DNA of 42,381 nt from the NCBI GenBank assembly GCA_947451105.1, contig CANFXY010000001.1, positions 64,280 through 106,660 on the forward strand, in the 5' to 3' direction. The notes below the pieces were generated by a model. That model did not search any database and was not told where the DNA came from. It saw only the letters and a list, made by a program, of their open reading frames with translations. Shown here in pieces: positions 5,031-8,585 of the stretch. The first letter of the stretch is position 1; each line of letters opens with the position of its first letter. The translations under genes were made by a program, and so were the position numbers. The DNA is from Bacteroidota bacterium (GTDB lineage Bacteria; Bacteroidota; Bacteroidia; NS11-12g; UBA955).

Positions 5031-5396
5031 AAAGGTAAATGGTCTGTCGCTATTTGAAAAAGTAGAGGAAAGTCCGGGCAACAAAGAGCACCATACCGTT
5101 TGAAAAGACGGGAAGCAGAAAGAAATGACTGTTTACAGAGAGTGTCGCAGAAAATAACCGCCTGAATTTTAGCAATAAATTAGGGTAAGGGTGAAAATGT
5201 GGGGTAAGAGCCCACGCCGTGTGTCAGTAATGCGCAGGGGGATAAACCTTAAGGGTTGTAAGGCCAAATATACCTGAGCCATAGAGCTGCTCGTTCAAGT
5301 TGGAGTTTACTTCAACGCTCAGGAGGGTAGGCTGCAATAGATCAATGACAGACATCCGCTCCGGTGGATACAAAACTCGGCTTATAGTTTACCTTT
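5031..5396 (+). ncRNA. rnpB: RNase P RNA, bacterial type A
   Basis: Catalytic RNA subunit of RNase P, which matures tRNA 5' ends. The conserved CR-I segment GAGGAAAGTCCGGGC occurs at 5065-5079. The 3' conserved segment runs from ACAGACATCCG (about 5347) to ACTCGGCTTATAG (5375-5387). The ends were placed by the P1 pairing of AAAGGTAAA (5031-5039) with TTTACCTTT (5388-5396). The length of about 366 nt suits a Bacteroidota type A RNA. It has its own promoter and a strong terminator, and it is transcribed toward the M61 peptidase gene. Confidence 0.95.
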
Positions 5397-5400
5397 TTTT

Positions 5401-7196: not shown

Positions 7197-7482
7197 ACCT
7201 GCAAATAAATAACAAATGAATGTCTTTACAATAAGTAAGCTTAATAATTATTAAATTAAAATTAGTAGCCAGCAACCCCGTTTTTTGGGTTGTTTAATTC
7301 ATCAGATTTTATTTCTGTTTTTATGGTCTTTTTTTTAGAATTGATTTTACCCGAATGAAGGTTTTCTTGATTTTTAAATTGGGATATACAAGGTTTTACA
7401 AAATTATTATTAAGAAATTTAAATTTTATTTAACTGAAATTCAAATGTTTATATGTTTTCGTCGATTTTGTTTTAAAAATAA
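7197..7482. other. Gene-free AT-rich spacer with one small hairpin
   Basis: No credible gene. An inverted repeat CAACCC (7273-7278) / GGGTTG (7287-7292) is followed on the plus strand by TTTAATT and could be a weak terminator remnant. The open frame at 7355-7537 has a biased Phe/Lys/Ile composition, continues through the promoter of the next gene and is judged spurious. Confidence 0.5.
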
Positions 7483-7512
7483 TTGCACAGGTGAGTGGGT
7501 TTTTTATATTTG
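7483..7512 (+). promoter_or_regulatory. Promoter of small-protein cassette 1 (TTG-N19-TATATTTG)
   Basis: A -33 TTG at 7483-7485 and a perfect -7 TATATTTG at 7505-7512, spaced by 19 bp, match the Bacteroidota housekeeping promoter. The start of transcription is expected near 7517, giving a leader of about 83 nt before the ATG at 7600. Confidence 0.85.
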
Positions 7513-7556
7513 TGTATGGGATGTTAAAACAATTTAAGTATTATTACTTATTGAGT
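7505..7556 (+). repeat. Promoter-leader repeat, copy 1
   Basis: This 52-bp block matches 8170-8221 at 45 of 52 positions without gaps. Its last 22 bases (7535-7556) are identical in both copies and include a short stem TAAGTA-TTAT-TACTTA followed by TTGAGT. The identity extends well past the -7 box into the transcribed leader. Confidence 0.9.
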
Positions 7557-7599
7557 TAAAACACTCACAAAAAACCAAGAAAAAAAACAGATTAAAGTC

Positions 7600-7812
7600 A
7601 TGGAAACAAAAAAGTATTACCGCCTTAACGATGCCTCTAATGGTTCTTTATTTACAATGATTAATAATGGACAATATGCTGTAGAGGAAACAATTGAATT
7701 AGAAATCTTCAAACCAAGTCTAATTTCTTATGACCGTGCCCAACAAATTGGAAGGACACTTTTGGTTCTCGCTTTATTATCTGGACTATTTTTCTTCGGA
7801 CTTAGCGCTTAA
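7600..7812 (+). CDS. Small single-pass membrane protein, cassette 1
   Basis: A 70-residue protein that I do not recognise. Residues 1-48 are polar and include an acidic patch (EETIELEIF). Residues about 51-69 (RTLLVLALLSGLFFFGL) form one hydrophobic helix at the extreme C-terminus, so it is probably tail-anchored with the N-terminus in the cytoplasm. Support for a real gene: a complete promoter, a leader shared with the next small gene, a start shortly after an A-rich tract and a strong terminator. There is no signal peptide and no sequence similarity to the second cassette protein. Confidence 0.75.
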   Translation: METKKYYRLNDASNGSLFTMINNGQYAVEETIELEIFKPSLISYDRAQQIGRTLLVLALLSGLFFFGLSA

Positions 7813-7823
7813 AAAATATATTA

Positions 7824-7903
7824 TACACAAATACACAAAAATTACCCTTTCTAAAAACAAACAAAACACACACTTAAGAAACTAACCTACACAAATACAC
7901 CCT
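7824..7903 (+). repeat. A/C-rich 3'-untranslated motif ACACAAATACAC, cassette 1
   Basis: The 12-mer ACACAAATACAC occurs at about 7825 and again near 7890, between the stop codon and the terminator. The same motif occurs around 8513-8530 in the 3' region of the second cassette. The transcribed stretch is notably poor in G. Confidence 0.65.
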
Positions 7904-7908
7904 TAATT

Positions 7909-7942
7909 TAGCCTTGTAGTTCGCTACAAGGCTATTTTTTTT
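7909..7942 (+). terminator. Terminator with TTCG tetraloop, cassette 1
   Basis: A perfect 11-bp stem TAGCCTTGTAG / CTACAAGGCTA (7909-7919, 7924-7934) is closed by the very stable loop TTCG and followed by eight T. Confidence 0.95.
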
Positions 7943-8147
7943 ATGATGTTTTTTTAATTTTAGATTCTATAAAAAATCATGACAAATCATTCAAAAAATG
8001 CCTTGTTGGTTTGAGCGTCTGATGGATGGTTTTTGTGAAATCTTGCTTTTAGATGGGTGATTGCTTTGGTTGCCATCAATTGAAATAAAATAATTCGTTT
8101 GATTTTCAGACTTTTAGATGTTTTTTTATGATTTATTTCAAAATACT
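7943..8147. other. Spacer between the two small-protein cassettes
   Basis: About 200 bp of AT-rich sequence with no credible gene. I see no structure beyond T-rich tracts. Confidence 0.5.
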
Positions 8148-8177
8148 TTGGTATAATAAAGTGCTTTCTTATATTTG
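8148..8177 (+). promoter_or_regulatory. Promoter of small-protein cassette 2 (TTG-N19-TATATTTG)
   Basis: TTG at 8148-8150 and TATATTTG at 8170-8177, spaced by exactly 19 bp as in cassette 1. Expected start near 8182, giving a leader of about 85 nt. Confidence 0.85.
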
Positions 8178-8221
8178 GGTATAGGGTATGAAAACAAACT
8201 AAGTATTATTACTTATTGAGT
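8170..8221 (+). repeat. Promoter-leader repeat, copy 2
   Basis: Second copy of the block at 7505-7556 (45 of 52 identical; the final 22 bases, 8200-8221, are invariant). The sequence diverges completely after the TTGAGT. Confidence 0.9.
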
Positions 8222-8266
8222 CTTTAATCCTAGACTAAACCATTAAAAAACAAGTAATTAAATAAC

Positions 8267-8494
8267 ATGGCCAAATTAAGTGATGCATTAAGTCCGATAG
8301 AGTCAAAAAGCTCTAAAAAGAAATTCTACATTTCAGAAATTATAATGTTAAAATCAATTATTGCTTTATTGGTCTTAACGTTCTTTTTATTGAATGAATT
8401 GCAAGCTTCAAATAAGGAAGTTAAGAAGTTGAAAAGCGATATGGTTTCGCGTACATCAGAAACCAACAACAATAATTTATTGAGCATTAAATAA
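8267..8494 (+). CDS. Small single-pass membrane protein, cassette 2
   Basis: A 75-residue protein that I do not recognise. Residues 1-22 are polar (Ser/Lys-rich, ending SSKKK). A hydrophobic helix at about 27-44 (MLKSIIALLVLTFFLL) is followed by a charged segment (NKEVKKLKSDMVSR) and an Asn-rich tail. The basic residues before the helix predict the C-terminus outside. The promoter, leader and 3' motif are shared with the gene at 7600 while the proteins differ, which suggests co-regulation rather than a recent gene duplication. Confidence 0.75.
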   Translation: MAKLSDALSPIESKSSKKKFYISEIIMLKSIIALLVLTFFLLNELQASNKEVKKLKSDMVSRTSETNNNNLLSIK

Positions 8495-8509
8495 ATTATC
8501 CCAATAAGA

Positions 8510-8534
8510 CACACACAAATACACAAATACACAC
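8510..8534 (+). repeat. A/C-rich 3'-untranslated motif ACACAAATACAC, cassette 2
   Basis: Two overlapping occurrences of the CACAAATACACA unit lie just before the terminator, matching the 3' region of cassette 1. Confidence 0.65.
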
Positions 8535-8543
8535 TCAACGACT

Positions 8544-8578
8544 ATAGCCCGCATGAAACTGCGGGCTATTTTAATTTA
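8544..8578 (+). terminator. Terminator of cassette 2
   Basis: A perfect 10-bp stem ATAGCCCGCA / TGCGGGCTAT with a 6-nt loop, followed by TTTTAATTT. It lies just before the convergent lpxB stop codon. Confidence 0.88.
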
Positions 8579-8585
8579 AGCCCAA

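Follow-up and report, generated by a model that had tools for sequence, protein, structure and literature searches.

A recurrent 33-bp leader element and the surface-protein and tiny-protein genes that it precedes in an uncultured genus of Bacteroidota

To our knowledge, the choice of the T9SS cargo that is displayed in Bacteroidota is little understood beyond PorXY-SigP. The PorX/PorY-SigP system of Porphyromonas gingivalis resembles the one considered here in being one regulatory circuit for T9SS-related genes. The PorX motif CG(A/C)AAAAA-N5-T(T/A)TCTTTGC, situated 97-75 nt 5' of the start codon of sigP, and the SigP motif C(T)AAA(G/C/T)A(T)A(C)T(A/G)A are given in the available sections of two reports (PMC8265659, PMC4800418). 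The targets of PorX and SigP described in those sections include secretion components, whereas the targets here are mainly cargo and tiny proteins (PMC8265659, PMC4800418). In a comparison by eye, both motifs, in the form given there, are unlike the sequence TRAGTA-N4-TACTYA with which the present analysis is concerned.

The heptamers recognised by NarL are found in various orientations and at various spacings. The element described here is unlike the NarL/FixJ arrays in that it is nearly always organised as 10-7-10 bp, with alternating half-sites, downstream of a promoter box. Its half-site TACTYA(T) fits the NarL/FixJ heptamer TACYYMT in the form quoted in the accessible part of the source (PMC4886647). 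Intergenic repeats of another heptamer, TAACTGA, with a proposed regulatory role, have been reported in Beggiatoaceae, Cyanobacteria and some Bacteroidetes, and resemble the present element in being short repeated heptamers 5' of start codons (PMC4679880, available portion). The TAACTGA repeats of that portion are direct, lie near the start codon and have no evident common gene function (PMC4679880), whereas the element here consists of inverted pairs near the promoter with a surface-protein theme. A description of such an element was not found among the matches listed from the open-licence literature of PubMed Central, and may exist elsewhere.

The window, which is the whole stretch of 42,381 nucleotides that was analysed (G000:C1:64280-106660), is part of a 2.76-Mb draft genome in 196 contigs, referred to as G000. 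Gene A (7600-7812, + strand) is an ORF of 70 aa with a C-terminal hydrophobic helix that ends the protein in GLSA, and gene B (8267-8494, + strand) is an ORF of 75 aa with one hydrophobic helix, MLKSIIALLVLTFFLLNELQAS, and a variable tail. A sequence-only reading had described twin promoters before the two genes, and both are present on the + strand as TTG, a 19-base spacer and TATATTTG, at 7483-7512 for gene A (TTG 7483-7485, -7 box 7505-7512) and at 8148-8177 for gene B (TTG 8148-8150, -7 box 8170-8177). The likeness of the two leaders has also been confirmed, with 45 of 52 bases identical between 7505-7556 and 8170-8221, including all of the final 22. If the -7 box is set at -12 to -5, where it is placed for Flavobacterium psychrophilum in the accessible part of PMC9723704, the leaders would be about 83 nt (A) and 85 nt (B) long, in agreement with the same reading. 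The two proteins are indeed dissimilar, since BLASTP aligns just 11 residues of the hydrophobic helix (E 0.35).

Orthologues of gene A have been identified in G010, G008, G019 and G005, and those of gene B in six other genomes. Protein B is also encoded in six loci of a genome collection, comprising Bacteroidia, Bacteroidota or Bacteroidetes MAGs and one Chitinophaga pinensis, in a search that reaches close relatives only. The helix of B is nearly invariant among the orthologues and the tail ranges from about 3 to about 30 residues. Comparison of proteins A, B and C (the last described below) with Pfam and NCBIfam gave nothing at the cut-off. Genes A and B are in tandem in G000 and G010 and divergent in G008, G019 and G005 (L008, L023, L011, L090, L094); in G016, 255 nt separate the B element from an M61 peptidase gene, with no A in between. 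The window also encodes an RNase P RNA of class A (5031-5400, + strand; Rfam).

The 3' flanks of both genes carry CA-rich ACACAAATACACA stretches on the + strand, TACACAAATACACAAA at 7824-7839 with a second stretch at 7889-7903 for gene A and ACACACACAAATACACAAATACACAC at 8509-8534 for gene B. These precede putative terminators recognised from the sequence, namely a terminator-like hairpin and T run after gene A (7909-7942, + strand) and a terminator-like hairpin after gene B (8544-8572, + strand). Exact matches to ACACACAAATACACAAA occur in 7 of 17 genus genomes, one each, shortly after gene B; at 2 mismatches the reversed control pattern also matches in most genomes. A similar CA-rich stretch lies directly 5' of the ATG of a 49-aa ORF of G000:C111 and of one cargo gene of G019. 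The complementary TTTGTGTATTTGTGTAAA, on the other strand, adjoins hairpins at the apparent 3' ends of cargo genes (L084-L086, L089 and L091, with several sites in G000, G008 and G019).

The conserved unit of the leaders, as defined by reading 44 places on both strands and then aligning them, is 33 bp long and has the form TRAGTA-N4-TACTYA-N-TRAGTA-N4-(W)ACTYA, with four half-sites in alternating orientation. The element of gene A, TAAGTA ttat TACTTA t TGAGTT aaaa CACTCA (7535-7567, + strand), begins after 22 nt from the end of the -7 box and scores 36.2 bits with a weight matrix and E 6.6e-7 with the core-only model R2; that of gene B, TAAGTA ttat TACTTA t TGAGTC ttta ATCCTA (8200-8232, + strand), scores 33.5 bits and E 1.1e-5. 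The models match both strands at one and the same place, reflecting the dyad symmetry. A gapless alignment (A6) includes 55 of 61 elements, five irregular ones and G007:C99 being excluded, and the fixed dyad spacing fits 56 of the 61. Among the irregular elements, G018:C21:6900 and G005:C194 have 10 and 12 nt between the dyads instead of 1, which is roughly one extra turn of DNA, G000:C111 and G010:C84 have 2 nt, and G000:C49:6993 has one nt fewer in its dyad spacing. The elements thus show the degenerate half-sites of dyad symmetry and fixed spacing before many genes that are looked for in an inverted-repeat operator of the dimer type.

The sequence-only reading had proposed a regulon with further members, and had held that a core confined to these two leaders in all relatives would speak against it. 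In the own genome the 21-base core is indeed found at only two places even when up to three mismatches are allowed, whereas the degenerate form is widespread. A DNA search of the same genome has identified a third and weaker place, before a 74-aa ORF, C. Across the 17 genus genomes a promoter-proximal pattern matches at 17 places, 9 of them forward and 8 reverse, against none for the reversed control pattern; these places correspond to 12 leaders of A, B or C, one of a further tiny gene, X, and four chance-like places. The sequence-only model R1, built from 15 leaders (alignment A5) and including the -7 box, was run at E<=0.1 on 69 genomes of the family, among them 16 of the genus with G012 left aside; it gave 5-16 strand-matches in 13 of the 16, 1-2 in G004, G011 and G015, and 0-3 in the 53 genomes of other genera. 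R2, which is likewise sequence-only, gave 5-23 strand-matches at E<=0.05 in each of 13 of the 17 genus genomes, one borderline match each in G004 (E 0.044) and G011 (E 0.014), and none in G012 and G015; yet G011 and G015 are 99% complete. At E<=0.01 a search of 108 genomes of the order revealed matches in 21, namely the 13 and 8 of 91 outside the genus, the latter with one or two matches each (best E 2.6e-4 to 0.0075), slightly above the chance expectation. The proposed regulon, other tiny proteins included, is supported by this recurrence in 13 of the 17 genomes of the genus.

Within G000 itself, R2 locates 9 distinct places at E<=0.005. When 402,233 bases, fetched around matches and hence not a random sample, were scanned with the weight matrix, 78 places reached at least 16 bits and 77 at least 19 bits. 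At the 16-bit threshold the 42-kb window contains the A and B elements only, and 40 dinucleotide shuffles of it (1,695,240 bases) contain none. The 77 scored places are a lower bound for the proposed regulon; R2 matches below 16 bits stand outside them (e.g. G014:C241, G019:C31, G018:C13:42714, G007:C208:401 and irregular elements), and the C leader of G016 falls outside the coordinates of the scan. The element is real, clade-specific and presumably regulatory, and it is tied to the cell surface.

Its position relative to the promoter box is narrowly distributed. An exact TAnnTTTG lies within 40 nt upstream on the chosen strand at 57 of the 77 scored places, with 12 nt (3 places), 13 (5), 20 (5), 21 (20) or 22 nt (24) between box end and element, a count that is biased upward and leans to 20-22 nt through the box-dependent choice of strand and the box-containing discovery model R1. 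The strand had been chosen by ORF length and then by box presence (places without an ORF of at least 60 aa on one strand only). The chance of an exact TAnnTTTG in a random 48-base window is 2.75%. In 19 of the 57 a TTG starts 22 bases before the box, which corresponds to a spacer of 19, and in 7 it starts 23 bases before. In 8 of the remaining 20 places a box that deviates at one base is visible by eye at 21-22 nt. On the numbering of the F. psychrophilum report cited above, in which the box spans -12 to -5, these spacings put the start of the element at about +9/+10 or at +17 to +19, and the element should therefore be transcribed.

The genes behind the 77 places were classified by regular expressions, with 14 leftovers assigned by eye. 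The earlier description of a set of tiny membrane proteins holds for a part of them and is too narrow for the whole: 29 places precede ORFs of up to 82 aa, and the other 48 precede mostly surface or secreted proteins and a few others. The tiny-protein places comprise A (5), B (7), C-type ORFs of 74-82 aa (3), X of 36 aa (5), D of 40 aa, one of them shorter (4), and a 29-30-aa protein (5); the start codon of X is about 275-317 nt downstream of the element. Secreted or adhesin-like proteins, most of them recognised by sequence motif alone, account for 25 places, PorG-like outer-membrane proteins for 8, a 170-186-aa signal-peptide protein for 7 and a 7TM-PAS sensor kinase for 4. Histone-like Lys/Ala-rich proteins of 106 and 103 aa (L144 and L174, in G007 and G014) and an 89-95-aa protein are found at 2 places each. 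A seventh tiny ORF, 49 aa long, follows the irregular element in G000:C111 and G010:C84, and the irregular element of G018:C21:6900 has no clear gene nearby.

Ten of the downstream proteins were tested for sorting domains, two of the sequences, L154 and L160, ending before the C-termini of their proteins. Five have the TIGR04183 sorting domain of NCBIfam above the cut-off and three have Pfam PF18962; the C-terminal Por_Secre_tail domain that marks type A cargo of T9SS is accordingly present in five of the ten. One PorG-like protein of 296 aa matches the PorG model NF052316 with E 3e-20, below the cut-off of the model, and DUF6089 above the cut-off.

Judged by dN/dS, the six tiny-protein families are under purifying selection and behave as genes. 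The ratio for gene A is 0.10 (G000-G010) and 0.11 in the two closest pairs and 0.35-0.48 in five distant pairs, with three further pairs saturated; for gene B it is 0.07-0.13 in 3 of 21 pairs, the other 18 being saturated. The values for gene C are 0.10, 0.19 and 0.38, those for X are at most 0.15, that for D is 0.08 in one pair with two further pairs saturated, and those for the 30-aa family are 0.08-0.40 in six pairs with four further pairs saturated. C shares an extended signal-peptide-like start (QTKEGFIKSM..FAF) with cargo proteins of 210 and 550 aa, and appears from its sequence more likely to be a secreted peptide than a membrane protein. The region 3' of gene C (L002:1889-2230) contains a 47-nt unit (AAAAGATATAAAGTG..CATAATGCGTTTGTTGATTTTCAA) three times, at spacings of 143 and 152 bp and each time beside a hairpin-like stretch, with 66% likeness in the third copy; by eye a similar arrangement is seen in G010 and G016, and Tandem Repeats Finder reported no repeat in the region.

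From this arrangement of sites we infer that the shared leader block is probably a DNA operator of 33 bp that lies at the transcript start and is recognised by a putative dimeric regulator. Such an operator would lie just downstream of ordinary Bacteroidota promoters with the TAnnTTTG box and would be made up of two inverted-repeat dyads (TRAGTA-N4-TACTYA). Their centres are 17 bp apart, so that a single sequence-specific regulator should bind as two dimers or as a tetramer. Once bound, this protein would impede escape from the promoter or early elongation and thereby repress, and on a presumed signal this repression may switch T9SS-type surface and secreted proteins, PorG-like proteins, the sensor kinase and at least six tiny-protein families, A and B included, together. 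Among the observations that count against an operator, the two spacings between box and element differ by 8-9 nt and not by 10-11, and the deviation in dyad spacing is just one nt in three of the five irregular elements.

The main rival, which we regard as rather unlikely, is that the element acts as RNA, either as a leader structure or as the site of an RNA-binding protein that sets translation or stability of the mRNA. At every place with a visible box, the element does lie within the transcript as predicted. The TAAGTA-TTAT-TACTTA stem suggested for the A and B leaders, in contrast, is not maintained, two of its six pairs being disrupted, one in 7 and the other in 8 of the 15 leaders. When partner half-sites were permuted across the 56 regular elements, the five irregular ones of the 61 being excluded, no excess of paired cells was observed for half-sites 1/2 (243 against 250.5 permuted), 3/4 (234 against 246.1) or 2/3 (255 against 261.4). 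Half-sites 1/4 pair slightly above the permuted level (256 against 248.1; p 0.054 with G-U, 0.029 with Watson-Crick pairs only), an excess that fades with one representative per group (mean p 0.19 and 0.14, respectively). In 53 distinct elements the hairpins 1/2 and 3/4 are paired at 70.9% against 73.8% in shuffles, 500 of 500 shuffles reaching the observed value, and the nested arrangement 1/4+2/3 is paired at 76.7% against 76.1% (154 of 500 shuffles), no better than chance. Covariation thus lends no support to the leader RNA structure that had been envisaged, apart from the slight excess for the one helix.

Two further points bear on recognition as RNA. The alike elements of G000:C111 and G010:C84 differ as TAGGTA..TACCTA and TAAGTA..TACTTA, a compensatory-looking change in the outer half-sites that counts against recognition as DNA. 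The leader 3' of the element, on the other side, differs by eye between gene families, and Rfam at the gathering score matches RNase P alone in the window and L002, with two sub-threshold matches in a permissive search of 7480-8580 (scores of 35.1 and 21.3, where the gathering scores are 99 and 51, respectively). The lack of an excess of hairpin or nested pairing, together with two irregular spacings that are longer by about one turn of DNA, favours double-stranded DNA as the recognised form without proving it. Two other features of the leaders were considered and rejected. A helix TATAGG/CCTA of 4 pairs has 88.3% of its cells paired and two pairs changed on both sides, and when it is scored jointly with the TAAGTA stem, the combination does not exceed shuffles on most measures, one measure giving 42 of 500; a conserved upstream ORF is, by eye, not retained among orthologues.

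It is decidedly unlikely that the block is an extended promoter, in the sense of an initially transcribed region or an alternative sigma-factor element read together with TATATTTG and involving no separate regulator. The tight spacing to the -7 box and the GNGTATA that is conserved right after the box in many members agree with this explanation. They are set against the occurrence of two different spacings, of which the longer puts the end of the element about 55 nt past the box, and against the ordinary TAnnTTTG nature of the box in a 42-kb window that has the element at just two places.

A site-specific recombination site or mobile-element end that has spread among surface genes is highly improbable: its dyad structure, its location before surface-protein genes and the orientation of A relative to its neighbours, which varies between genomes, would suit it, whereas the bases between half-sites vary by copy, which recombining sites should not tolerate, neither terminal repeats nor a recombinase came to notice by the way, and B adjoins lpxB or an M61 gene in several relatives, as seen by eye. 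Recent local duplication as the sole source of the likeness of the A and B leaders, which lie 665 bp apart with an identical 22-base core in the window and likewise in G010, is hardly credible and is refuted as the full explanation by unrelated genes elsewhere that carry the element and by the A and B orthologues of G008, G019 and G005, which retain it despite synonymous sites saturated or nearly so relative to the window genes, so that its conservation is deeper than such a duplication, as had been expected. Local gene conversion may be behind the extra likeness of A and B in G000 and G010.

Returning to the operator and its putative regulator, GerE proteins were profiled because the half-site fits the NarL heptamer in the quoted form (PMC4886647). 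The set was made up of 30 loci minus L230 plus 40 more, with 71 ORFs among the matches listed; some matches, many of them from G014, were left out. None of the clusters of LuxR-type (GerE) proteins fits the pattern of 13 genomes with and 4 without the element among the 71 ORFs examined from 69 loci, in a coarse clustering that joins at 42% identity and in which a fitting subfamily could hide inside the largest cluster. A widespread response regulator of 250 aa is also encoded in two genomes lacking the element, G011 and G015, with 57% identity and a recognition helix that is similar by eye. The 7TM-PAS kinase was considered as the DNA-binding regulator and rejected, since by eye no DNA-binding domain is seen in the kinase or in the receiver-only protein that follows it.

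A more far-reaching proposal, which is quite unlikely and is drawn from the gene content behind the element, is that of an undescribed genus-wide surface switch in the leader, which would co-control T9SS cargo and at least six families of peptides of 29-82 residues (A, B, C and others). These resemble signal-peptide or membrane-helix stubs of the cargo and might modulate secretion or the membrane sensor kinase of the regulon. A single recognisable DNA signal that links cargo, PorG-like proteins, a sensor kinase and several tiny proteins makes the regulon of this uncultured genus open to testing, and it places the otherwise orphan tiny proteins in a functional setting.
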